DNA of 64,000 nt from Vibrio ishigakensis. GTDB taxonomy: Bacteria; Pseudomonadota; Gammaproteobacteria; Enterobacterales; Vibrionaceae. The stretch spans positions 186,001 through 250,000 of the forward strand of contig NZ_AP024882.1 of NCBI RefSeq assembly GCF_024347675.1, read 5' to 3'. Position 1 is the first letter of the stretch. Each line of letters begins with the position of its first letter. A model generated the notes under the pieces. It was not told the origin of the DNA, searched no databases, and saw only the letters and a program-made list of their open reading frames with translations. The position numbers and the translations under genes were made by a program. Positions 16,812 through 35,747 of the stretch are shown piece by piece.

Positions 16812-16873
16812 ACGCCAGAAACGACAAATCACGCAGTTAAGCGTTTGTATTTTAGAAAAAAGGGAGTTTAAAA

Positions 16874-16900
16874 ATTGGAGCGTGCAGCGGGAATCGAACC
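16874..16900. other. attL of the tRNA-Gly island (27-bp direct repeat)
   Basis: 27 bases here are identical to 35671-35697 and contain the 3' end of tRNA-Gly (T-arm through CCA). The flanking bases differ on both sides. This is the truncated tRNA copy expected at the far end of an element that integrated into the tRNA 3' end. Confidence 0.92.
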
Positions 16901-17046
16901 AGAAGCACTACCCATTAAAACCATATAAATCACTGATAAAACAGTTAGTTAAGCAAAAGTCAAAATAGCTTTTGTTGGTTATTATCTGCCAAATGTACCA
17001 CTTGATCGTTTCACTTTCAATTAAACTGGAGTTAAAAGAAAGACAT

Positions 17047-17090: not shown

Positions 17091-18095
17091 CTAGAAGGAT
17101 ATGTTTAAGCTACTTGTGTTCCTCTGCTCCTTAAATGCCAAACCTCCACGAATATTGTTTTGCCAGAGTAGATAGTTACTTTCCATAACTTTTACACTTG
17201 TCTGTCCACAATGGTCAGCAACATCGACCTTTCGCATACCAGCATTAATACTGTTATTGACGAAAGTATGTCGTGCTACCTTGCTGCCCCTAAACTCTAC
17301 ATTTGCCAACTCAAAGTATTTACTCAAGGCATGGTAATATTGCACACTACTCTTCCACGGTTGCTGAGTTGTGGGAGCAACGAAGAAGAAATCTTCTGTC
17401 ACTTCTCCATCTCGTGTCATGAACGTCATCTTGCACGTTTTTCCTTGAAGGAGCTGCTGTTTCAGAATTTTGGTAGAGAGTTCTGTTAGTGAAATTACTC
17501 TAATTGATTTCTCCGTCTTTGGTTGCTTCAACTCTCCACCGACAATAGAGTATTTAATCTTAAGAGTTTGTTCTTCAGGGTCAAAACCAGAAACAGTAGC
17601 TCCAAAGATCTCACCAGTTCGTAGGCCTTCCTCAGACGCTAATATAAAACTTTGAACTACAAAATCATCAGTAGCACGAGCAGACAGTTTTAGTAGTTCA
17701 TCACGTGAGTACGGATGTACATACTTTTGATCATTTGCTCCCTTAACTTTGATTTTTCCTTCGTTGAAAGGGCTACTCTTCAGATCTCGACTCTCAAGGT
17801 AAAGCTCAAAAACTTTTTTCAACATGAGCAAAACGTGTTTTCTGGTTTTTTTTGCGTAGCCCACTTTTGAGTTGCGACTAGTTTTACAACGCTTTAGAGT
17901 TTCGTTTAAGAACGAGTTTAGCATCGATGCTGTAACATTCTTCACGTATTCATCTAAGAATGGGCAGTGTCTCTCCACAATTAAAATTGCGTCGAAGTAG
18001 CCTTTTTTAGTGCTTGTCGTTAGCGAGTCATCCTCGTCTATTTTTTTTCTGAGCTTCATGAGGCTCGTTTTCATCTTGTCCCTAGTTAGACGCAT
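17091..18095 (-). CDS. Tyrosine recombinase, left-end integrase
   Basis: A 334-residue site-specific recombinase. The N-terminal SAM-like/core-binding half (about 1-130) is followed by the catalytic domain: first Arg in EEGLRTGEIFG, the beta-hairpin Lys in KTEKSIRVI, second Arg in KVARHTFVNNSINAG, His in DHCGQTS and the nucleophile Tyr in MESNYLLW. The usual HxxR box reads KxxR here, a substitution tolerated in some members. It is orientated toward the left attachment site 190 bases away, with its own terminator. It is unlike the right-end enzyme in length and motifs. Confidence 0.85.
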   Translation of the reverse strand: MRLTRDKMKTSLMKLRKKIDEDDSLTTSTKKGYFDAILIVERHCPFLDEYVKNVTASMLNSFLNETLKRCKTSRNSKVGYAKKTRKHVLLMLKKVFELYLESRDLKSSPFNEGKIKVKGANDQKYVHPYSRDELLKLSARATDDFVVQSFILASEEGLRTGEIFGATVSGFDPEEQTLKIKYSIVGGELKQPKTEKSIRVISLTELSTKILKQQLLQGKTCKMTFMTRDGEVTEDFFFVAPTTQQPWKSSVQYYHALSKYFELANVEFRGSKVARHTFVNNSINAGMRKVDVADHCGQTSVKVMESNYLLWQNNIRGGLAFKEQRNTSSLNISF

Positions 18096-20286: not shown

Positions 20287-21558
20287 TTAAGCATGCGTAT
20301 CGAGCTCCATAAGTAACTCACTAAGTTTCTCCGCCTTTTTACCTTTTACAAAGTTATCTAGTAACTCCAATGGTTCAACGTAAACACACTTGATTGGAGG
20401 ATACATTTCATCCTCTGTGTTACCAGTTTCTCTATTTAACATATGGACAGACTCTAACGGGCCTCGCCCCGGAAAAACAAAGAAATTCCGTACACTTGCA
20501 GTTGGACAATATACTGATAACGCCTTAGCGTAAAAGAATTGCTTAACTAAGTCTGGCCACCCCGGAGCACTTCCCAGCCCTTGAGCCTCATAATACTTTG
20601 CATCGACAACTGCAAAAATATCACTATCTGGAAGCCTTAGAACAGTATCAGTTCTTTGACCTTTATTCGCAGCAATCTTTATGTCCCCATCGATAAAACG
20701 GTATGCTGGTACAGGGAGCAACTTATTCACTGGAAAATTCCACTTTAAAGTTTTATCCAACATATGCTCCCACATTGTATGAAAGTGCCGTATCCCTAAA
20801 ACACTATCACTTTTTTCTCGCCCATGAACCGATTTTAAATAGTCACGCAACAGCTTGAGCAACCTGATATCTCTGTCCGAATAAACACGCTCCAGCTCAA
20901 AGTTAATTGCCTCTATTTGATGCCAAAGTTCCCCCTTCGGCTCAGACACTGTTTGAATATCTTGTGCAATAGACAGGTCTGACCCTGTCACAATCCACGC
21001 ATACGAAGAGTCAAGCTCACGAATGACTGAAGCATGAATTCTAGCTACCTCACAATCCGATACGTAGCGCCGTTTAGAACCGAGGATGTCAAGATATACT
21101 GGCCCACCTCTTCCATGATAGGCTACTTGCTGCGAAATGGTTTTTTTCCAATCAGGCTTACCCGAGTTGATTACTCGCTCAGACAATCTCTGAGAATATA
21201 GGCCGTTTGCACAATAATCTTCAAGTAAGCCAGAGATCAAAGCTAATTTATGGTGTCCAAACCAACCTTCACCATCCTCGAGCGCTTCTATAACGCTTGA
21301 GCGGTCCTGTGTGTAACGATAAATAGCTCTAATCAGAGATGCAGATAGGCGAAAGCAACTCTTGGTACCTGAATGAGGCAAACTCGAGTTCCGAGGAAAA
21401 AATACGTTTACCCCCTGCCCTGAGACTACCACACCGCAAAAAGAAACTTTATTATCACCGCTCTGGATAACACCATTTGCAAGCATGACCTCTTTCAAAT
21501 GCTCAGGCAATAACCCAACTAACACTCGGTCAGTGTAGAGATTAAGCTCAATCGCCAT
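20287..21558 (-). CDS. LlaJI/McrC-like restriction endonuclease subunit
   Basis: 423 residues. The C-terminal half shows a PD-(D/E)XK nuclease core: Glu in TMWEHMLD (264), Asp in RTDTVLRL (304) and D-A-K in VVDAKYYE (319-321). The N-terminal part is the McrC/LlaJI-specific region. In LlaJI and McrBC systems this subunit cuts DNA after the AAA+ GTPase partner loads and translocates. It overlaps the McrB-like gene by 11 bases, so the two are coupled. The DNA-cytosine methyltransferase next door argues for a LlaJI-like type II restriction-modification set rather than a stand-alone type IV McrBC. Confidence 0.82.
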   Translation of the reverse strand: MAIELNLYTDRVLVGLLPEHLKEVMLANGVIQSGDNKVSFCGVVVSGQGVNVFFPRNSSLPHSGTKSCFRLSASLIRAIYRYTQDRSSVIEALEDGEGWFGHHKLALISGLLEDYCANGLYSQRLSERVINSGKPDWKKTISQQVAYHGRGGPVYLDILGSKRRYVSDCEVARIHASVIRELDSSYAWIVTGSDLSIAQDIQTVSEPKGELWHQIEAINFELERVYSDRDIRLLKLLRDYLKSVHGREKSDSVLGIRHFHTMWEHMLDKTLKWNFPVNKLLPVPAYRFIDGDIKIAANKGQRTDTVLRLPDSDIFAVVDAKYYEAQGLGSAPGWPDLVKQFFYAKALSVYCPTASVRNFFVFPGRGPLESVHMLNRETGNTEDEMYPPIKCVYVEPLELLDNFVKGKKAEKLSELLMELDTHA

Positions 21559-23197
21559 CGCTAATTACTTCAGGCTCAATAGGAACAATCGCACACTCAC
21601 TTAGTTTGCTCTCTAACGCTTCATTGAAGACAGCTGCGCCTTGCTCATAAGCACTAATAAGTTGACCAAAATTTGTGATCGACGTTGTTGTGCCCTTCAC
21701 TTCCGCAGACTCGCGGAAAATTACTGTATGTTGGCCATGTCGAAGTACGTCATCCCAAAGATACATCAGCAGTTTGCCTTTGAGGATATGGTCTGAACCA
21801 GATTTAAATTCATTTTCGCCAATAAATCGATGACCAAGAAGACGATCTTCGGCAATACGCTCAGAAACTAATAAGCTGTTGATAGCCTTGCTAAAATCAG
21901 CCCAAGACACCGTACAACTTTCAACACCATCGATACCATTAATGTTTACAGTTAACTCTCCCTTGGATGCTTTTGAGTAATCGATCCTCAGGTATTCAAA
22001 CTCCCAACGACGCTTGAAAGCTGTGTCCATAGGCATTACTGCTTGATCGCTACTATTCATTGTTGCAAGCAAAGATAAGTTCGAGGGTAACTTGATTTTT
22101 TTGCTAGAAAAAGCACCGCTGGTGTGACTATTAAGATAGTTGAGCAAGTCAGGATCTGATATATCAATAGCATAAGTGCTGGTGCCATCCTCCTCTCGAT
22201 CTAACAGCTGGAATATTTCGCCGAATACTGCCGCGGCAGCAGCCCTGTTAATCTCCTCAATCACCAAGTTGTAAGGGTTCGATGGATCATTCACAGCTTT
22301 AATCAGTGCTTCTGTAAATGGACCTGCTCGAAATTGGTACGTTACACTACCACCCTCCATAACAGGCTTTAAACAACCAACAAAGTCACTATATTGGGTA
22401 TCAGGATGAAAAACCGTTCGTATTAATTGTTTCTCATCTAGCCCCTGTTTTAACGAATAACTTTTACCAGTACCGGGTGCACCATAGTAAATTTTGTTAT
22501 GACCTGTCGTAATCGAACTCACAGTAGTCGATGAACCAAGACTTGGAGCTATTTCACTAGGGTCCTCAGCACTTAGGCTATCGATAAGGCTTCGTACTGA
22601 TTCCTCTTCTATGTATATTGCTATAAAGTGTTCAAGCTTTCCTGCTGTATCATTAATTAGCTTGCAAATAGACGTCACGCATGAGGCTATATAGTCACTT
22701 GGTTTTCGATTCAGTTTTTTACCGCTGAGTCCATCTCCTTTTCTATCAAGCCATACTTCACCAGACAGAAAATCATTGAACCTACTTCTATCGTCAACAT
22801 CTGAGAAGTTTTCATTAACGTAAGTATCAATTATGGCAACTTGCCCTGCATCAATCTCATCACGCCACAGAAGTGCAGGAAGGGCTCTCATCGTTGAATC
22901 TTCCAAGAGCCTCTTAAGCTCTTGAGCGTGAATAGCGTAATCTTGTAAAGCTGCAATGATACTTCGACAATGGCGAATTCTAGCAAACCAGTTAAACGGC
23001 AAATATGCGGCCTGTGAATTGCTATTCGTTATCTTGATAAGATTATCTTGTAAAACAGGAGAGTAGCTGGAATAAGCAGCTCGATAAACTTCAAATAGCT
23101 GCGTTTTAGCGTCATTATCAAATTTTAACTCTGTAGAAAGATTGTCAGAGACAGATTCTTCTGCTTGCCTCTTCAACAGTGCAAGATCCTGCAACAT
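21548..23197 (-). CDS. McrB-like AAA+ GTPase, restriction motor subunit
   Basis: About 549 residues. The N-terminal ~235 residues are the variable region expected to bind DNA. The AAA+ module has Walker A IYYGAPGTGKS near residue 240, Walker B LVIEEINRAAAAAVFGEIFQLLDRE, and the McrB-type sensor LLATMNSSDQAVMPMDTAFKRRWEF (MNxxD signature and arginine finger). GTP hydrolysis drives translocation in this family. The frame is open from GTG 23227, but ATG 23197 has AGGA eight bases upstream and leaves a 74-base divergent promoter region to the methyltransferase. Confidence 0.88.
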   Translation of the reverse strand: MLQDLALLKRQAEESVSDNLSTELKFDNDAKTQLFEVYRAAYSSYSPVLQDNLIKITNSNSQAAYLPFNWFARIRHCRSIIAALQDYAIHAQELKRLLEDSTMRALPALLWRDEIDAGQVAIIDTYVNENFSDVDDRSRFNDFLSGEVWLDRKGDGLSGKKLNRKPSDYIASCVTSICKLINDTAGKLEHFIAIYIEEESVRSLIDSLSAEDPSEIAPSLGSSTTVSSITTGHNKIYYGAPGTGKSYSLKQGLDEKQLIRTVFHPDTQYSDFVGCLKPVMEGGSVTYQFRAGPFTEALIKAVNDPSNPYNLVIEEINRAAAAAVFGEIFQLLDREEDGTSTYAIDISDPDLLNYLNSHTSGAFSSKKIKLPSNLSLLATMNSSDQAVMPMDTAFKRRWEFEYLRIDYSKASKGELTVNINGIDGVESCTVSWADFSKAINSLLVSERIAEDRLLGHRFIGENEFKSGSDHILKGKLLMYLWDDVLRHGQHTVIFRESAEVKGTTTSITNFGQLISAYEQGAAVFNEALESKLSECAIVPIEPEVISDGD

Positions 23198-23235
23198 ACC
23201 GATTCCTGTTTGCATCAACAAAAACACAGTGCTAT

Positions 23236-23262: not shown

Positions 23263-23271
23263 GGCTGTGTG

Positions 23272-24594
23272 ATGAGTGAAATTTTAGATAAAGCGCAATA
23301 TATCAAAAACCTAAGAAAAAAACTGGGACTTGGGGCTACAGAACTAGCAAACTTACTGGGCATGAACTCTAGTGGTGATCGAACTATTCGTGGCTGGGAA
23401 AAGGGTGAACACGAACCAACAAAAGTAAAATGGGCTGCCATCGAAGCACTAGAGGCTAACTTAAAAGCACACTACGACAATGCACCATTGAAGTTCGACG
23501 CTAGCGTCACACCAAAATTCAAATTCATCGATCTATTTGCGGGGATTGGCGGAATTCGCTATCCATTTCAAAAATTAGGTGGACAGTGTGTCTTTACCTC
23601 AGAGTGGGACAAGTTCGCTCAAAAAACCTACCTAGCAAATTATGGAGAGATGCCAAACGGCGACATTACACAAATTAAAGCTACTGAGATACCAGACCAC
23701 GATATCTTACTGGGGGGGTTTCCTTGCCAAGCTTTCTCACAAGCCGGTTTAAAACAGGGATTCAGCGATACTCGTGGAACCATGTTCTTTGAAATCCAAC
23801 GTATACTTGCAGAGAAGAAGCCAAAGGCTTTTCTTTTAGAAAACGTAAAGCAGTTACAAGGGCACGACAAAGGGCGAACTCTCAAAACTATCAGGGCAAT
23901 CCTCGAAGGCAACCATGAGCATGAATTGCCAGATGATATATTACTCAGTGATGAAACACGACAAGCTCTATCCCGAAAGCTAAATTACTGGGTCGATATA
24001 AAAGTTCTTCGTGCTGCCGATTTTGGGGCTCCTCAAAATAGGGAAAGGGTGTTCATCATTGGTTTTGATAAGGATCAGTTTCCTGATGTGAGCTTTGATG
24101 AAGAATTCAACTGGCCAATTGCACCGAAAACACCAACTAGAGTGGGTAATATACTTCAGTCAGCAATAGAGCTAACTGACGATGAGACTCGCAACGGTAA
24201 AGATCGATTTACTATTTCTGACAAATTGTGGATCGGCCACAAAAAGCGTAAAGAAGAACACAAAACCAAAGGAAATGGATTCGGCTACTCACTTTTCACA
24301 CATGAAAGTGAATATACAAATACAATCAGTGCCAGATATTACAAAGACGGTTCAGAGATCCTCATAGACCAAACTTTTATAAATAAAAACCCTCGAAAAC
24401 TTACTCCTCGTGAGTGCGCTCGACTACAAGGTTTTCCTGAGGAGTTCATTGTTGATGCAGTATCACAAGGGCAAATATACAAACAATTTGGTAACTCAGT
24501 TTGTATGAACGTAATCCATGCTGTAGCGAAACAAATGACAATAACTTTAGACAACATCAACGCTATCGATGAAGCAAATCTTAAAGCCAGTTAA
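23272..24594 (+). CDS. HTH-fused DNA cytosine-5 methyltransferase
   Basis: 440 residues. Residues about 5-60 form an XRE-like helix-turn-helix (LRKKLGLGATELANLLGMN...IRGWEKGE). The C5-methyltransferase follows: motif I DLFAGIGGI (87-95), motif IV GGFPCQAFSQAG with the catalytic Cys 152, motif VI ENVKQL, motif VIII QNRERVFIIG, and motifs IX/X RKLTPRECARLQGFP and QFGNSV. The target recognition domain is the stretch before motif IX. It probably protects the DNA against the divergent McrB/LlaJI-like nuclease and controls expression through its HTH. The frame extends upstream to 23179, but that would overlap the motor gene; ATG 23272 fits domain boundaries. Confidence 0.93.
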   Translation: MSEILDKAQYIKNLRKKLGLGATELANLLGMNSSGDRTIRGWEKGEHEPTKVKWAAIEALEANLKAHYDNAPLKFDASVTPKFKFIDLFAGIGGIRYPFQKLGGQCVFTSEWDKFAQKTYLANYGEMPNGDITQIKATEIPDHDILLGGFPCQAFSQAGLKQGFSDTRGTMFFEIQRILAEKKPKAFLLENVKQLQGHDKGRTLKTIRAILEGNHEHELPDDILLSDETRQALSRKLNYWVDIKVLRAADFGAPQNRERVFIIGFDKDQFPDVSFDEEFNWPIAPKTPTRVGNILQSAIELTDDETRNGKDRFTISDKLWIGHKKRKEEHKTKGNGFGYSLFTHESEYTNTISARYYKDGSEILIDQTFINKNPRKLTPRECARLQGFPEEFIVDAVSQGQIYKQFGNSVCMNVIHAVAKQMTITLDNINAIDEANLKAS

Positions 24595-25035: not shown

Positions 25036-25240
25036 AGTGCTTTCTCTTCAACATATAAATTTATGTCAGAAATCACAAATCTATTTAAAGGGGGGAGTTA
25101 AGAGGGGTCTCCCATCTTGCCAGTGACATCACCTAGCGAAGCGATGGGGTTGTCCTATCTGGAATGAGGCATCAAAATAATTGCTTAGTATTTAATTAGT
25201 TGCACTCAGCTAATTAAAAATCCTACAGTTATTGAAAACC

Positions 25241-26092
25241 ATGCTTAAAAACTGGACAGTTACAACACAGGCAGTAAAAAACGCAACCGCTGGAGTAATG
25301 ATTAGAGAAAAATACCTATTATCAAAATCTCATCCAAACCACAAAAACACTGAGCGAATCTTAAACCTCCTAGGTAACCAAAAAACATCTCAGCGCATAG
25401 CCATTGCAGGTGAACATTTTCGTACAACTCAGATGTTAAACAACAAAGGTGGTAGACCTTTACAGAGTTATGCAATGGAGTTTTGCCTTACTATGCCACA
25501 AGGGTACAGACCGACTCCAGAACAATGGAGAAGCATAGTACGTGACATTTGTATTACTGTAGCCAAAAAGCTAGAACTTACTGATGTTGAATTTGAGCAT
25601 TTCAAAACACGGCTGAGAGCTGTTGTTCATCAACAAAAACAGCAAGGTTTAGGAGCTGGCGACCATGTCCATTTGATAATGCCCAAGATAGTTGGAGCAC
25701 GTATTTTGAAGGAGTTGCAGCGTAAACAGGTCACGAGACTGATTAAACAATCATTTAACTCAGCAGTTCTAGAACATACAGGATACGACTACACACAGTA
25801 TGTTCCAAAAGCAACTGGCAGAGGTAAGCGGCTAGATGAATGGCAGTATCAGCAGCAGGAAGCAAAGAGAGCATTGAAAATTCAGAGGTTAGTTACCAAG
25901 TTACAAAATCAATCTGATAAGTGGTTCAAGGCTTTCTCAAAGAATGACGAGAAACAACTTAACCGTCAGTTCAATAGGTTAATCAAAACATTTGAAGAAC
26001 TTGCCAGTCTATCTCCTGATGAAGTAACTTCTAAAAACATTTCTCTTTTGAAGAAAGACATACAAAAGAAAAGTAATAGAGATATTATCTAA
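25241..26092 (+). CDS. Candidate HUH relaxase / mobilisation protein
   Basis: About 283 residues, basic, with GAGDHVHLIMPKI at about residue 145: a His-x-His flanked by hydrophobics, as in the HUH metal site of relaxases and rolling-circle initiators. Candidate catalytic tyrosines lie in EHTGYDYTQYVP shortly after. The C-terminal third is charged and helical. The N-terminal region (MLKNWTVTTQAVKNATAGVMIREKYLLS) is typical of mobilisation proteins carried by small Vibrio elements. If correct, the island could be mobilised by a helper conjugative element. The frame opens at TTG 25232, but ATG 25241 is used here. Confidence 0.5.
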   Translation: MLKNWTVTTQAVKNATAGVMIREKYLLSKSHPNHKNTERILNLLGNQKTSQRIAIAGEHFRTTQMLNNKGGRPLQSYAMEFCLTMPQGYRPTPEQWRSIVRDICITVAKKLELTDVEFEHFKTRLRAVVHQQKQQGLGAGDHVHLIMPKIVGARILKELQRKQVTRLIKQSFNSAVLEHTGYDYTQYVPKATGRGKRLDEWQYQQQEAKRALKIQRLVTKLQNQSDKWFKAFSKNDEKQLNRQFNRLIKTFEELASLSPDEVTSKNISLLKKDIQKKSNRDII

Positions 26093-26316: not shown

Positions 26317-28380
26317 CTATCGAAAGCTAAAACCTTCTCGTTTCGCCTTCTCTTCTATATTTATTATTTCTCTGCACTGCAGTGGAGAAGGTATTTTCCT
26401 TGTCTGCTGTACGGTATCTGCTATTTTGAGAAGGCTAACTTCCTTCTCAGAAAGCATAAAACTATCCTTATTCCAGTCAAGTATCATTCCCCAATACTCC
26501 TCTTTGGATTTAATAAGTACATACTCTTGGGCTTCTATCCCATTGTCTATTTTCTTTGTTGCAACAGCATCTTCCTTTCGATTACGCTCTTTATGCATTT
26601 CTATGACAAAAGACTTAAGGTTAATATCATAAGGGATGGACATTTCACTCTCTATTCTTGTCCAACAAGCTTCTTTTTTACAATATTGAGTTACGTTTTC
26701 GTTACCTGCTTTTTCTTTTATATTGTAATTAACCTTTTCCGCTATCAACAATAAATTATCCAACACAGGCTTTGGTACTTCTTGTAAATTCCAAATTTTT
26801 GAAAAGTCCAGTTGTAGCCCTTTCGCTTCTAAAATACTTGTGAACTTAGCTATTGCATAAGTTACAATGTTAGCCTTGTAACCGCCATACCACGAGTCTC
26901 TCTGAGCTGCTACTTCTCTATCCAAACCTTTAAAAATTATAGCCTTAGCTACTAAATCTTTAAAGTAGACTTCGTTAAAGCTAAGTTCACTTTTTTTCCA
27001 TTCTTTACCAATCTTTTCAGCAAATAGAGTAAAGTTTTTTTGAGCTCCTAAGCTTACTAAATGTGGTTTTTTTTCAAAGCTCATCTGGTATTTAGCTAAG
27101 TCAGTTTTTGTGATGACTTGTCCTCGAGGATTTAATTTCTCGAACTTATCTTGATCAGTTTTTGTTCCGCTGTTTTTCGCAGTTAAATATTGTCCTCTAG
27201 CGCGCTCATAAAACCATTGAGTTTGTCTATGACTTCCAACGGCACTTGGAGCAAAAAGCCGACGAGAAAGCTTCTCCATCTCCCGGTGGAAAGGCGAATT
27301 TGAAAAGAAATCAGCTGCATTTACTTTATTTTGTGTATTCGCAAACTCAGATATCCGTGGGACTAAATCCTCTATTTCCTCTGGTTTTACTACAGTTAAT
27401 TTAACTTGAACATATACCTTACTAAGATCTGAACCGTCTTTTTTGTAAGTATTGAAAATAGACGCTGTAGTCTGACCTCCATTTACTATTTGGAGATCTT
27501 TAATTGCAACAATTTCATTTGGGTTTGATTCGCTAAAATACAACGATTCTGCTGTTGCTGTTAGGCCATTATTAAAGGCAAAGAATAATTCCGGTTCTTT
27601 TTGAATAGTCTTCCTCATCCCTTTATTAGTATTGCCACGGAACTGCAAAAAAGTTCTAACATTTTGTTCTAGTAGCCTTTCACCATGGTTCTCATATAGC
27701 TCAGCTAGTATCTTCCCATTTAACATAAATAGGTAAGACTGATGATTATCCGCTGGCTCAAATGCCTTTAAACATGGAATTGTAGTAGCAAAATCATTCT
27801 GTATATCAATGTATAAGGGTTGCTTTCCAAATTTTGATGTTTCAATATTATATAGTTTTGTTAAATCCCAAATTTGATGAATAACGTTGATTCCATTTAC
27901 ATCAGGAATAGTGAAATCTTTGAATCTATCGCTCAACTCTAGGTTCGAAACAACAATAAACTTCAATCCCGTAATATAATCTTGCTTTGTGTTAATTAAC
28001 TGAATCAAATTATATGCTAATTCAGTCTCCTCTAAGCTATTTATAAAGTCACTTTTTAGTGAGTACTTGAAGAACTTCTCCAATCTTTTATATAATTTCT
28101 GTGTTTCAGATTTGGTCAAGGTACTATAGGACTCTGAAAACTTAGATATAATAAGGGTTAATACTCCGTTTTCATCTGAGTAATCATACGCATCTACTTT
28201 TATACCCAATCTATCTTTCTTGAAACCACAAGGTTCATAATTTTCAATTACCCCCTCATCTACCAATGTATCACAAATATTCTCAACAAAGTTTTCCTCT
28301 TCAAACCCTGTTGAAACTAATGCACCGGCATAGATATCTTGAAGATGCTTGTCAAAGAATTCGGTTAATTCATTATTCAT
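26317..28380 (-). CDS. AIPR-family abortive phage infection protein
   Basis: A 687-residue cytoplasmic protein. The AIPR (abortive infection phage resistance) core lies at about residues 220-480, with the signature LQIVNGGQTTASIF and the following ISEFANTQNKVNAADFFSN, then PFHREMEKLSRRL and QTQWFYERARGQY. The N-terminal ~200 residues look like a nuclease-related domain. It is the last gene of the ATPase-Z1-DUF4420-AIPR operon and overlaps the preceding gene by 4 bases. In MZA-type systems this is probably the effector, but its biochemical activity is not settled. Confidence 0.88.
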   Translation of the reverse strand: MNNELTEFFDKHLQDIYAGALVSTGFEEENFVENICDTLVDEGVIENYEPCGFKKDRLGIKVDAYDYSDENGVLTLIISKFSESYSTLTKSETQKLYKRLEKFFKYSLKSDFINSLEETELAYNLIQLINTKQDYITGLKFIVVSNLELSDRFKDFTIPDVNGINVIHQIWDLTKLYNIETSKFGKQPLYIDIQNDFATTIPCLKAFEPADNHQSYLFMLNGKILAELYENHGERLLEQNVRTFLQFRGNTNKGMRKTIQKEPELFFAFNNGLTATAESLYFSESNPNEIVAIKDLQIVNGGQTTASIFNTYKKDGSDLSKVYVQVKLTVVKPEEIEDLVPRISEFANTQNKVNAADFFSNSPFHREMEKLSRRLFAPSAVGSHRQTQWFYERARGQYLTAKNSGTKTDQDKFEKLNPRGQVITKTDLAKYQMSFEKKPHLVSLGAQKNFTLFAEKIGKEWKKSELSFNEVYFKDLVAKAIIFKGLDREVAAQRDSWYGGYKANIVTYAIAKFTSILEAKGLQLDFSKIWNLQEVPKPVLDNLLLIAEKVNYNIKEKAGNENVTQYCKKEACWTRIESEMSIPYDINLKSFVIEMHKERNRKEDAVATKKIDNGIEAQEYVLIKSKEEYWGMILDWNKDSFMLSEKEVSLLKIADTVQQTRKIPSPLQCREIINIEEKAKREGFSFR

Positions 28381-29336
28381 AGCATTAACTCACTTTCGTT
28401 AATTATAAAACTTGAAATGTCGTCTAAGTTAATAGAATAAGTCACATCACTTATACATCTTGGAACTTCTTGACGGCTAATTTTGGGGAAACTGTCATTC
28501 ACAATATAGAAAGTTCCTGAACTTAATATAAATTTATGATCATCATATTTTTCATTATAAATGTATCCAATAGACAATAGTTTCTCTTCAAATTCATCTA
28601 TTTTCTCGATACTTCCACTATCAATCAGCTTAGACTTTATTTTTTCTATTAACTCTGGAAGACTTTCTATGCCTTCATCATAACTGCGAGCTGGAGAAAT
28701 AACTAAAACATAGAGGTAAAGTTTATCAAGTAGCTTATCTAACTGTGTTTCAGAAGATATTTTAATTTTAGGATGACTAGTCCCTGTTTTACATTTAATT
28801 TCAAAGGCTGCGTCTGACAAGCAGAAGTCTTGGTTAGAACCGAGTGGTCCCGTCCAAAATTCAATAGCCTCGGCTGCGGTAAACCCTTTACAATCACACA
28901 AATAACTATTTATAAAGTATAGCTCACCAATTAATCCTTTTATTTTTTCAGTAGATAATAACCCATCATTGCTTTTCTTTAGAAACTTCTGCCATTTATC
29001 AATTCGCTCTAAAATTGTGCTATGGGTATAATAATCTAAACTCTCGATCTTACCTATAATATCCTTACATAATGAATAGAAAAGCGATGCATTATGTTTG
29101 TTTCTTAATCTTAGTATGACTGATTCATCATCGATAGCAATATCAGTGTCCATCCCTGTTAACTCGGGCTTCCTTAGTTTAGCCTTAGGTTTTGCGTTAG
29201 AAAATGCCTTAAAACAGTAATTCCCGTTACTATCTACAAACCACCATGCATTTACGTAACTAGATTTAGTAGCTCTAATCTTCTTATTATTATCTAGAGC
29301 AAACCAAGGTAATGTAGAGCTTTCATTAATCATCAT
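28377..29336 (-). CDS. PD-(D/E)XK motif protein, DUF4420 type
   Basis: 319 residues. The core reads IKGLIGELYFINSYL (Glu), FWTGPLGSNQDFCL (the Asp of the PD position) and AFEIKCKTG (E-x-K), a PD-(D/E)XK nuclease arrangement at about residues 125-195. This is the DUF4420 pattern found between Z1 and AIPR genes. It overlaps the Z1 gene by 11 bases upstream and the AIPR gene by 4 bases downstream. A DNA-cleavage role is predicted from the fold. Confidence 0.85.
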   Translation of the reverse strand: MMINESSTLPWFALDNNKKIRATKSSYVNAWWFVDSNGNYCFKAFSNAKPKAKLRKPELTGMDTDIAIDDESVILRLRNKHNASLFYSLCKDIIGKIESLDYYTHSTILERIDKWQKFLKKSNDGLLSTEKIKGLIGELYFINSYLCDCKGFTAAEAIEFWTGPLGSNQDFCLSDAAFEIKCKTGTSHPKIKISSETQLDKLLDKLYLYVLVISPARSYDEGIESLPELIEKIKSKLIDSGSIEKIDEFEEKLLSIGYIYNEKYDDHKFILSSGTFYIVNDSFPKISRQEVPRCISDVTYSINLDDISSFIINESELML

Positions 29337-32082
29337 ACTCTTCTTCTAAGTCATAATCTGAATAAATTTCTTTCCAATATTGCGTATTAACAATATATTC
29401 TACTTGATTTTCCTTGAGTAGAGCTTCGTGATCTTCTAACTTAGGAAAAGACAGCGCCCAAAATACAATACCATCGCTCCCAATGCATTCTTGCAACTGG
29501 GAGTCCTCCTTCTTGGAGTCCTCCTCCTTAGACTCCTTTTCTTTGACATCTAATACCGATATGATCAATAAAGGTTTTGTTCTCAAAGTTCTATAGTCTC
29601 GACCAGACAAACTAACATCATCGTTAGCATGGTTACTTGATTTCTTTTTTTTCTTTAGGCTTTCTATGTCATTTGTTGTCAAACCAGCACTTTCCCAGTT
29701 TGGCGAAACAAATGTACTATTACTTGAAATTATCTCTTTTCTTATACTATTAAACACAGCGGTTCGTTTAGCTGCAGAAATATTCAATTCACCATCACGA
29801 GTTTCTAATTTTAAACTTAAACTTTCTTTACCTTTGCTAGGACTAACTATCAATAAATCAAGTAAATCATACTTTTTCTCGATATAGTCACTTATTGCAT
29901 TAGGTTCAGACTGCATTGATGCAGGGTGATTCCTAAACGCTTGAATGAAATTAACAGCATCTTCATTGGAAATGTCTTTGACAAATACTCCGGGAGACTT
30001 AATATTCGCATCAACGTTGGTATTACCAATAACACTTTTGATAAACCTTCTTAGTAACGCATGATTTTCATTGACCGACTTTTTAGTAGCTAAGAGCTTT
30101 TCTGTTTGGACTAGGCGCCCAGAAAGCGAAATACTCTGAGTAAATTTATTACCGGTACGCATCTTGTTCCTAGCAGTAACCATTAGTGATTCTGGATGCG
30201 CTCTGACTGCTAGACCAAACTCTAATGGACTCATTCTAGCTTGTTCCATTCTAGAAAAGTCTGCCCGTAACTCATTTGTAGCCGCAGAAATGTGCCTATA
30301 CCAGCTTATTGCTTCAGGAGCCATGTAAACACGGCAAATGTCTTCGAAGTTTGGTCTATATCCAAACCAGCGTCCCTGCTGTTGCAAAGTGTCATACATC
30401 TGGCTGTTACGCATAAAGTAGCTAACGGTCAACCCTTCTAACGTCAGTCCACGTGACAAGCTGAGGCCACCAACAGCAATGATAGTCCTTCCGCTAGGGT
30501 ACCTCTCTTTATCATAATCTAATGGCTCAGCATTTATTGAGCCATTAACTTCAATCACTTTCAAAGGCGCGATAGAAGCTTTGAGTTGGGATTGAACCTC
30601 TGCCCATACAAATTCAACATCGCTGTACTCTTTTAAAAACGTAGCTTTCAATTGTCTAATGCTTTTGTTTCTTATTGCAATGTCCGGCTCTTTTGCATAA
30701 TGATTTAGTATGTCGTTGCTTAAAGACTTGATGTAATTAAAAACTAAAATTTTTAAATTCGATTGGACATCAGTAAATCTACTAACATTAATCAACATCG
30801 AGTTATTTTTCCCAAATTGACCTCTTAATAACCGTATCGCTTTAGTTATAACGAAACAATTAATAGCTTCCATTAAGCTAATCGGCAATTCAGTTGGAAC
30901 AAAATCTTTCTTGTGAGACATAGGAATATGCTCTTCACAATCAACAACTTCTCTTACAATATCTAATTCGCTGTTATCACCAAAAATCTTATCAGGTCCA
31001 ATGTAATTTGATGGAGCATCTAGATTCAATATAAAATCTCTTGGGAAAAGGTCATCATGCTCCATTTCCTCAGTGGTTTCTGGGTCTATAAATATATTAG
31101 CGAAAGGGGTTGCTGTGTATCCTACGTACGTATTTTTTCTAAACAACCCTATTATTTCTCTAATTTTAGAATTTATCGCCGTAGGATCATCATCCTCTTT
31201 ATTTGTATTAATAGAAGCATGATCAGCTTCATCATCAATAAGAAGCATTGGAACATCATCTAAGTTGAGGTTATTATTTTTGAACCACTTGATAACATTA
31301 TTCAAAATACTTTTGTTTTTCTTTAACACTAGAACGACGGGTTCTTTGAACCCATCAATACTAGCCTTGAAACTGTTTGCGGCTGCTGTATCAAAATCTT
31401 CTGATGTAGTAAGTGATACAGGAAAACGCTTAGATTGTTCTGAGCGTTCCAAACCAACACCTACAAGCTTCAAATTTTTATTCGCATCTAAATATCTTGT
31501 ACTATCTCTACCAATGAAGCCTTCATCTATACGCTCTTGTGTTTGGGCTCTTAATGCACTTAATATCCCAGCAAGTACAATAATTACTTTATAACCGGCA
31601 TCTGCGGCCTTGGTTATTAAACCTGTGTAGTTAGCAGTTTTCCCGCTTTGAACGTGACCAACTACAAGACCTTTCCTTGACCACTGTCCATCATCATCAG
31701 GATTCTGGCAGTTATCTAAGATTTTATTGGTAACTAAATCTATTTTTCCAGCCACTTTGGGGCTAAACCCAGAGTTTATTAAGTGCTTTTCATATCTATT
31801 CCAGTAGTACCAATTGATGTCAGCTTTGCATTCGTCTAGCCAAGGAATATGATCTCGATTTCTAAATAGAGTTCCTTCTCCCATTTCTTGAGAGAACAAT
31901 GATTCAAAATATGCTATGACTTCTTCAATTTCATTATGGTATATTTCTTCCCCATGCATTATTTTGAAGAATCCACTTGTATTATTAACTATATCTCTTA
32001 TGTCACCGTCAACAAGCTCTGTTGATTTAGTTTCAATAAAAGGAAGAACTGTTTTTTTGAAATTTTCTATCTTGTTATTCAT
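29326..32082 (-). CDS. Z1-domain superfamily II helicase/ATPase
   Basis: 918 residues. Walker A GHVQSGKTANYTGLI begins at residue 142, the DEAD-box-like LLIDDEADHAS is near 285, motif III is GYTATPFANI, and the Z1 domain follows with VGGLSLSRGLTLEGLTVSYF and motif VI QQGRWFGYRP. The C-terminal region (about 650-918) is charged, with the acidic tail EKESKEEDSKKEDSQ. Z1 proteins are predicted to remodel or translocate DNA alongside MORC/MutL-type ATPases. It starts 8 bases after the GHKL ATPase gene. Confidence 0.92.
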   Translation of the reverse strand: MNNKIENFKKTVLPFIETKSTELVDGDIRDIVNNTSGFFKIMHGEEIYHNEIEEVIAYFESLFSQEMGEGTLFRNRDHIPWLDECKADINWYYWNRYEKHLINSGFSPKVAGKIDLVTNKILDNCQNPDDDGQWSRKGLVVGHVQSGKTANYTGLITKAADAGYKVIIVLAGILSALRAQTQERIDEGFIGRDSTRYLDANKNLKLVGVGLERSEQSKRFPVSLTTSEDFDTAAANSFKASIDGFKEPVVLVLKKNKSILNNVIKWFKNNNLNLDDVPMLLIDDEADHASINTNKEDDDPTAINSKIREIIGLFRKNTYVGYTATPFANIFIDPETTEEMEHDDLFPRDFILNLDAPSNYIGPDKIFGDNSELDIVREVVDCEEHIPMSHKKDFVPTELPISLMEAINCFVITKAIRLLRGQFGKNNSMLINVSRFTDVQSNLKILVFNYIKSLSNDILNHYAKEPDIAIRNKSIRQLKATFLKEYSDVEFVWAEVQSQLKASIAPLKVIEVNGSINAEPLDYDKERYPSGRTIIAVGGLSLSRGLTLEGLTVSYFMRNSQMYDTLQQQGRWFGYRPNFEDICRVYMAPEAISWYRHISAATNELRADFSRMEQARMSPLEFGLAVRAHPESLMVTARNKMRTGNKFTQSISLSGRLVQTEKLLATKKSVNENHALLRRFIKSVIGNTNVDANIKSPGVFVKDISNEDAVNFIQAFRNHPASMQSEPNAISDYIEKKYDLLDLLIVSPSKGKESLSLKLETRDGELNISAAKRTAVFNSIRKEIISSNSTFVSPNWESAGLTTNDIESLKKKKKSSNHANDDVSLSGRDYRTLRTKPLLIISVLDVKEKESKEEDSKKEDSQLQECIGSDGIVFWALSFPKLEDHEALLKENQVEYIVNTQYWKEIYSDYDLEEEYDD

Positions 32083-32090
32083 AGTGACTA

Positions 32091-33578
32091 TCAGCTAAAT
32101 AATTTATCAATTTGTTTTATTGCTTGGCTTTGATTCGAGTGGAATGGCTCCATACCAATTATCATAGCTCTAAAGCTATCATGATCTAATTGGGCGTAGA
32201 TATTTCTAAGATATCCAATACTTTCGTATACTTGCTTGTCATCCAATTCTTGCTTATCAAATTTTTCAGTCTTGCTAGCGTATTCACTATAGAAATGCTC
32301 TGCAGGGAATCCAGTACTGATAGAATCGATTAGATTGTATAATTTTCGTTGCGTTTCTGAATCAAGAGAATCACTGATATCTTGAATAAGAGGATGCTCT
32401 TTATTTATTAAATATTCATATGAGTTAGATTTTTGTATTCTTTCCCAAATTGGGTATGTCACATTTCTTACTTGTTTATACCCTTTTTGTTTTATAACTT
32501 TTCTACCACTATACTCTATGTTGCTGATTATATTTCTGAGTTCGTTTCTTACTGAAATAGGAGGTGCAGCATTAGCTTTTTTAACGTCAATTTTCCAAAT
32601 GCTATCTAGTTCATTTGTAATATCCACTCTTATTCTAATAAGCTTATTTAGCTCCGACTTAGGTATAACCCTAAACCAGTTGGCTTTTATAATGAGTCTT
32701 TTATTCCGATATACATAGAACCCCTGATTTTGAAAGTAACCCTCTTTTCCACCATAGAGTTCATATTTTTCAGATGATACTTTTGAGTGATGAGGAAGGA
32801 CGTAGGGCTGAACTTTTACCTTCGAGTTATTGATATTTATAGTTTTTTCAGTTAACTCCACGGTCGCTACTTCATCTCGACAAAATGGATCGTAAGCCTC
32901 TAATTTATCATTGTTAAACAGTATAACTATTGGCTTATTTTTTCCTTCCTTAGCATCCAGAAATCGATGAAATGTTAAAGATATGTGCTCTCTGGCATTA
33001 CTCATTAGTTCATTAAATTTTGTTTCCTTAATTTCCTCAGAATCAAAATTATCTATTCTGTCGAGCTTTTTCCAAAGTACAACGGTCCCACTATCCTCAT
33101 TGTTTAATAGCTTTACTGCTTGGATCAATTGTTCATTTTCTTGGAAGTCGTCTGTACCTAGAATATTCAATTGCCAGCCATTGTGGCTAGTCGCGATTTC
33201 ATCCAAATCCCACTGCATGGCAGATAGAGTGTTATCTTTTTTAGTTATTACAGTTAGTTGACGTGCTTGCGAGAAAGAGGCTGTTTTCAATCCAAGCCCA
33301 AATCGACCCAAATCATCTTTACTTCGAGTATTAAGTGGATTCTTGCTACCTAACTTCATTGCCTCTAACAACTCTTGATACGTCATACCTGTACCGTTGT
33401 CGAATATCTGCACCCATGCTTTGCCATTCAAGTACTCAAAATCAACATGGATTAGGGATGCCTCTGCACTGATACTATTGTCTAGAATATCGGATAGTGC
33501 TGTTTCCATGGAATACCCGATATCACGAAGTGATTCTAAGAGCGAACTAGGTGAAGGTTCCAATGTAAAATGTTTCAT
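32091..33578 (-). CDS. MORC/MutL-type GHKL ATPase of an MZA-type system
   Basis: About 495 residues. The GHKL (Bergerat) ATP-binding fold shows motif I SDILDNSISAEA, motif II IFDNGTGMTYQEL and motif III LGRFGLGLKTASFSQ within the first ~120 residues. The N-terminal RDIGYSMETAL is typical of the prokaryotic MORC-like group. The C-terminal half has no recognised nuclease motif. These ATPases are thought to clamp or loop DNA and recruit the Z1 partner. The frame opens at TTG 33599, but ATG 33578 begins at the conserved N-terminus (MKHFTLEPSPSSLL). It is the first gene of the four-gene operon. Confidence 0.9.
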   Translation of the reverse strand: MKHFTLEPSPSSLLESLRDIGYSMETALSDILDNSISAEASLIHVDFEYLNGKAWVQIFDNGTGMTYQELLEAMKLGSKNPLNTRSKDDLGRFGLGLKTASFSQARQLTVITKKDNTLSAMQWDLDEIATSHNGWQLNILGTDDFQENEQLIQAVKLLNNEDSGTVVLWKKLDRIDNFDSEEIKETKFNELMSNAREHISLTFHRFLDAKEGKNKPIVILFNNDKLEAYDPFCRDEVATVELTEKTININNSKVKVQPYVLPHHSKVSSEKYELYGGKEGYFQNQGFYVYRNKRLIIKANWFRVIPKSELNKLIRIRVDITNELDSIWKIDVKKANAAPPISVRNELRNIISNIEYSGRKVIKQKGYKQVRNVTYPIWERIQKSNSYEYLINKEHPLIQDISDSLDSETQRKLYNLIDSISTGFPAEHFYSEYASKTEKFDKQELDDKQVYESIGYLRNIYAQLDHDSFRAMIIGMEPFHSNQSQAIKQIDKLFS

Positions 33579-34154: not shown

Positions 34155-34284
34155 ATTGCAGGTATTGCAGGTATTGCAGGTATTGCAGGTATTGCAGGTA
34201 TTGCAGGTATTGCAGGTATTGCAGGTATTGCAGGTATTGCAGGTATTGCAGGTATTGCAGGTATTGCAGGTATTGCAGGTATTG
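34155..34284. repeat. Tandem array, 14 x 9 bp (ATTGCAGGT)
   Basis: Fourteen perfect copies of ATTGCAGGT (34155-34280) plus the partial copy ATTG. The array is uninterrupted, so it is recent or actively maintained. Because 9 is a multiple of 3 every frame through it stays open, producing spurious repeat-rich frames on both strands (YCR and LQY repeats) that I do not regard as genes. It lies 22 bases beyond the stop codon of the right integrase. Copy number is likely to vary between strains. Confidence 0.97.
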
Positions 34285-34306: not shown

Positions 34307-35608
34307 CTAGTCGTTTCTAGCAAAAACCTTAAACTCAATCCGGTTTACTGCCAGTTGCAATCGCACCAAGCTGACCCGCTTACCATAGCGCCCATAAGTC
34401 ATTGTTTGTTTGGTATGACCAACAATATCAGCAATTTCGTTCTCTGCGATACCTTCTGATTGTGCAGTATCTATGAAGGTATGACGTAGCCCATGGAGAG
34501 TCGGACGATCCTTGCCGTGAAAACCCTGTTGAGTCAATACTTTAGCAAACCGTTTCCCAAATTGTTCAGACCAACAATTATTTTGACCATATGGTTTTAT
34601 ATCGAATAGTTTTTTCTGATATGTTTCAGCACGTTGATTTACATAGTCAAGGAATCCAAGACTCAACAACTTATTATGTAATGGCACATGTCTTATCGAA
34701 GCGCGGCTTTTGATACTCTTGCCATCATTCTCATTTATGCTGATACACCAAATATCCCCCAACTTCACCACGTCCTTCGTACTCAGTTGACAAATTTCAC
34801 TAACTCTAGCACCAGTGAATAACAAGAGGTGCGGGATCCAGTAGTCCTCCAACTTTTTTTGATAGTTGAGATGAGAATCATTTGATCCTATAACGCCTGT
34901 GAAATTATCGTGAGAAAACAGTCTACCCAGCTCTTGTCTGCGCCACTTTCGGCGCTGTTCTGATGCTAGCCGACCATCTGACTTCGCCTTAACTAATCCG
35001 AATGGATTGGCTCTGGCATACTCCATCAATATAAGCCAATTGTAGAACTGCTTTATCGCTGCTAGATAGTCTCTGACCGTCTTCGCAGATAAACGTTTCT
35101 CATACAGTTTTTTCAAAAACCCGCTAGCTTCTCTTGCAGTTATTTCTTCAAATGGTTTATCAGTTGCTTGGATTAATGATTGTATCCGCGAGCGCATTAG
35201 GCCTAGGTTTTTCGGTTTAACTCCCTCAGCTTGTTTAAAGTCAATAAAGCGGGTAACTAAATCCTCTCGGGAAGGATTGGTATGTACTTTCCTATCTTGT
35301 TGCTTCTCTACGGGTTGATTGTGAGCAGGCAGGATTCCCTCAGATAAAAAGGAATTGCAGGCGATCAGATTTAACTCTTCCTTCAATGAGCTAATAAAAG
35401 TTTTAGCGTCGAGATCGCTTTCCTTCATAGCTCTAGCGATGAGGGTTCGGGCTTTTTGTAGTATTAGAAGAGATCTATCAATGGCGGTACTACGAGACTT
35501 AGTTCGCAGAGAAAACCTTACTTCGGCAGGGCATCCACTAACTGCCAGTTTTTTGGGTAGGTAAATTCTAGAATAGTAGTTCGAATTACGATTCTTAAAC
35601 ATGTACAT
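34307..35608 (-). CDS. Tyrosine recombinase, right-end integrase
   Basis: A 433-residue phage-type integrase. The N-terminal ~110 residues are an arm-binding domain (YYSRIYLPKKL...), and a SAM-like domain follows (REDLVTRFIDFKQAEGV). The catalytic domain is complete: Arg in FTGARVSEICQL, Lys in KSRASIRHVPL, HxxR in TLHGLRHTFIDTA, His in IVGHTKQTM and Tyr in TYGRYGKRV. It begins 65 bases from tRNA-Gly and reads away from it, the usual position for the enzyme that integrates at that tRNA. It is the most likely integrase of the island. Confidence 0.93.
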   Translation of the reverse strand: MYMFKNRNSNYYSRIYLPKKLAVSGCPAEVRFSLRTKSRSTAIDRSLLILQKARTLIARAMKESDLDAKTFISSLKEELNLIACNSFLSEGILPAHNQPVEKQQDRKVHTNPSREDLVTRFIDFKQAEGVKPKNLGLMRSRIQSLIQATDKPFEEITAREASGFLKKLYEKRLSAKTVRDYLAAIKQFYNWLILMEYARANPFGLVKAKSDGRLASEQRRKWRRQELGRLFSHDNFTGVIGSNDSHLNYQKKLEDYWIPHLLLFTGARVSEICQLSTKDVVKLGDIWCISINENDGKSIKSRASIRHVPLHNKLLSLGFLDYVNQRAETYQKKLFDIKPYGQNNCWSEQFGKRFAKVLTQQGFHGKDRPTLHGLRHTFIDTAQSEGIAENEIADIVGHTKQTMTYGRYGKRVSLVRLQLAVNRIEFKVFARND

Positions 35609-35670
35609 CGTGACACCTTGGCGTTCTAGGTACAGACTACTTTGCTTAAGCTGTTGAAAATAATGATAAT

Positions 35671-35747
<77 letters not shown>

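Follow-up and report, generated by a model that had tools for sequence, protein, structure and literature searches.

A four-gene MZA-like operon without a methyltransferase of its own in a tRNA-Gly island of Vibrio ishigakensis

A stretch of 64,000 nucleotides from Vibrio ishigakensis (contig NZ_AP024882.1, positions 186,001 to 250,000; hereafter the window) carries a putative bacterial defence operon of four genes, B-C-D-E, which lies entirely on the minus strand at 26317..33578 within a mobile island and is a variant of a putative system that has already been described. The locus is unusual among its relatives because its own methyltransferase is missing, and the remark in an earlier sequence-only reading that no methyltransferase lies inside the operon has been borne out. 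The operon may rely on the mark set by a restriction system next to it, or may work without a mark.

Genes of the operon

The operon was confirmed, and domain and PADLOC matches agree with the domain calls made earlier for the four genes:

32091..33578, minus strand: gene B, MORC/MutL-like GHKL ATPase, MzaB-like (HATPase_c_3 2.5e-33; PADLOC MzaB 6e-84)
29326..32082, minus strand: gene C, MzaC-like, called a Z1 helicase in the sequence-only reading (PADLOC MzaC 1.6e-135)
28377..29336, minus strand: gene D, DUF4420 PD-(D/E)XK nuclease, MzaD-like (DUF4420 6.5e-63; PADLOC MzaD 4.9e-19)
26317..28380, minus strand: gene E, AIPR protein, MzaE-like (AIPR 1.8e-101; PADLOC MzaE 1.7e-77)

The start of gene B was placed at ATG 33578 in preference to TTG 33599 of the open reading frame (ORF) list, and its best solved relatives by sequence are MORC4 (E 3.8e-06) and MORC2 (E 3.5e-04). 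All four ORFs are full length and retain their catalytic residues; in gene D, E138, D170, E179, K181, and Q198 are kept in 49 of 49 alignment rows. The AlphaFold2 model of gene E has a predicted local distance difference test (pLDDT) score of 83 and a predicted template modelling (pTM) score of 0.47. Together with fold matches and conservation, the model predicts that the N-domain is restriction endonuclease-like, without E-x-K, and that it is possibly followed by a ParB/sulfiredoxin-like domain bearing the NGGQTT motif. A relative of gene E, P0121 (476 aa), follows its sequence to roughly residue 437 and diverges from there, which would fit either a sequence error or a near-identical strain whose copy is frameshifted.

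Relation to described systems

The earlier assignment to MZA (mzaABCDE; PADLOC, NCBIfam) stands in part. Homologs of MzaB, MzaC, MzaD, and MzaE are present in the identical order, each with its PADLOC match, but their NCBIfam scores lie far below the equivalog cut-offs, at 331 bits of the 850 needed for MzaB, 566 of 1500 for MzaC, 112 of 420 for MzaD, and 333 of 1050 for MzaE. The gene upstream of B is an integrase, where MZA has the sigma factor MzaA; no MzaA match was found by PADLOC among the ten ORFs scanned, and no ORF of the window was listed with a sigma-seeded profile. Because of these low scores and the missing MzaA, the operon is MZA-like and not MZA proper. Gao 2020 is the paper cited for MZA. 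In Escherichia coli G1/2, an MZA locus that is otherwise annotated has its mzaB region split in two by an IS421 (IS4-like) transposase gene.

The putative system named 'Type II' in PMC9523054 (Nat Commun 2022) is a better fit than MZA, the methyltransferase excepted: a cytosine methyltransferase is counted there as a core gene, whereas the operon here has none of its own, and the enzyme 1.7 kb away groups with LlaJI-linked methyltransferases. The MORC/paraMORC restriction-modification (R-M) neighbourhoods of PMC2292703 share the GHKL ATPase, the helicase, and the REase-fold nuclease, with AIPR in the network; cytosine methylases and Vsr are mostly close by in those neighbourhoods, whereas this operon is without either. 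The CglI/NgoAVII R-M systems (PMC4267653) consist of three genes with a PLD-B3 nuclease, in contrast to the DUF4420, GHKL ATPase, and AIPR proteins found here, and the operon contains neither a PLD-B3 R-protein nor its methyltransferase. One further system compared is EcoRII-like, with no AIPR or MORC gene named for it, against the LlaJI type here.

An R-M pair of the CglI/NgoAVII type is carried by another contig of the genome, and the product of gene C could in principle be paired with its PLD-B3 R-protein. Such a split arrangement is very unlikely. Pairing of R with N is probably specific, and the two genes sit on separate contigs. BfiI, a PLD enzyme, cleaves without ATP (PMC4267653), and two rare genes sharing one genome may be chance.

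Methyltransferases and the sparing of self DNA

A cytosine C5 methyltransferase is present at 48 of 51 core loci; 35 of these enzymes belong to one family, 36 lie within 700 bp, and 27 of the 48 are on the downstream side of the core. The source genome sequence holds two C5 methyltransferases, neither of that main family. At one core locus (L003, 7633-8352), an HhH-GPD glycosylase gene adjoins the methyltransferase, where others have Vsr. At another (L010, 12940-15067), a methyltransferase, an NgoFVII C-terminal DNA-binding domain without the nuclease domain, and Vsr stand in line with the core, and the NgoFVII fragment could be a site reader. The main-family methyltransferase of a third (L006, 14558-16102) has DrmMII of DISARM as its best PADLOC match (1.3e-95).

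One C5 methyltransferase lies 1.7 kb from the operon, in a cassette of the LlaJI type:

20287..21558, minus strand: R2 nuclease (RE_LlaJI 3.4e-35)
21548..23227, minus strand: McrB-like R1 (AAA_5 1.5e-08)
23269..24594, plus strand: helix-turn-helix (HTH)-Dcm C5 methyltransferase (DNA_methylase 8.6e-97), with the start at ATG chosen by the analyst and GTG 23179 given in the ORF list

By descent and gene order, this Dcm-type enzyme belongs to a LlaJI-type R-M system. It shares 62-73% identity with the methyltransferases of six LlaJI-type loci, groups with LlaJI-linked enzymes (clade 100/98), and is linked to an RE_LlaJI R2 and to an R1 whose homologs are present in each of the 10 other LlaJI-type loci fetched. 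With LlaJI itself (PMC1459862), the McrB-like R1, the R2, and the C5 methyltransferase are shared, whereas LlaJI has two methyltransferases and the cassette one, and the R genes and the methyltransferase are divergent here. This enzyme would be a candidate donor of a self mark to the operon. At two other LlaJI-type loci (L050 and L053), a MORC-like ATPase stands in the same gene run, and at L050 an SNF2 helicase was also confirmed.

The core might instead need no methyl mark and respond to some trait of replicating phage (DNA ends, or DNA that is branched or modified), acting abortively or restrictively. The methyltransferases beside relatives would then belong to independent R-M systems next door or form an extra layer. 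This is possible but on balance unlikely. Among 55 matching genomes, two E. coli MZA loci carry mzaA-E without a C5 methyltransferase within the 25.7 kb fetched, and AIPR is classed as abortive infection in Pfam names and in PMC3506569. The recurrence of C5 methyltransferases at the core loci, mostly of one family and close by, argues against it. A Dcm is encoded on the E. coli chromosome, with PF00145 matches in the E. coli control, and could substitute. Both E. coli stretches also start within the coding region of a type I restriction system, which places further methylation systems close by.

It is improbable that the core has lost its methyltransferase and survives only as a silent or inactive remnant. 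The main-family enzyme is indeed missing from the genome sequence, whose two C5 methyltransferases belong elsewhere, and the near-identical P0121 departs from gene E in a frameshift-like manner. However, P0121 comes from a 4.3-kb contig and may be in error, and the four ORFs are intact.

The surrounding island

The operon and the cassette, from which the operon may borrow its mark, lie in an island at tRNA-Gly:

16871..16907: att-like repeat, left copy, 89% identical to the right copy
17091..18095, minus strand: second tyrosine integrase, left island end (Phage_integrase 1.1e-06)
25232..26092, plus strand: 286-aa ORF, the next one downstream of the core, like ORFs of 2.4-kb Pseudomonas plasmids
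34307..35608, minus strand: tyrosine integrase beside tRNA-Gly (Phage_integrase 7.5e-16)
35668..35704: att-like repeat, right copy, 37 nt, 3' end of tRNA-Gly
35673-35747: tRNA-Gly

The 37-nt repeats flank about 18.8 kb with one integrase at either end; the two tyrosine integrases differ, and the island may have been assembled from two elements. Across the core (26-34 kb), the GC content of 32-38% compares with 47-48% in the stretches at 14-16 kb and at 37-40 kb. Besides the operon and the cassette, the island contains an AAA_25 gene, a 116-aa ORF of unknown kind, and the 286-aa ORF, which occupies the side where the methyltransferase stands in 27 of 48 relatives. The latter ORF has 34% identity over 91% to the Pseudomonas plasmid ORFs and a weak relaxase match (0.038). 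Just downstream of the stop codon of the integrase beside tRNA-Gly, at least 14 head-to-tail copies of the 9-nt unit ATTGCAGGT occupy positions 34155-34280 of the window.
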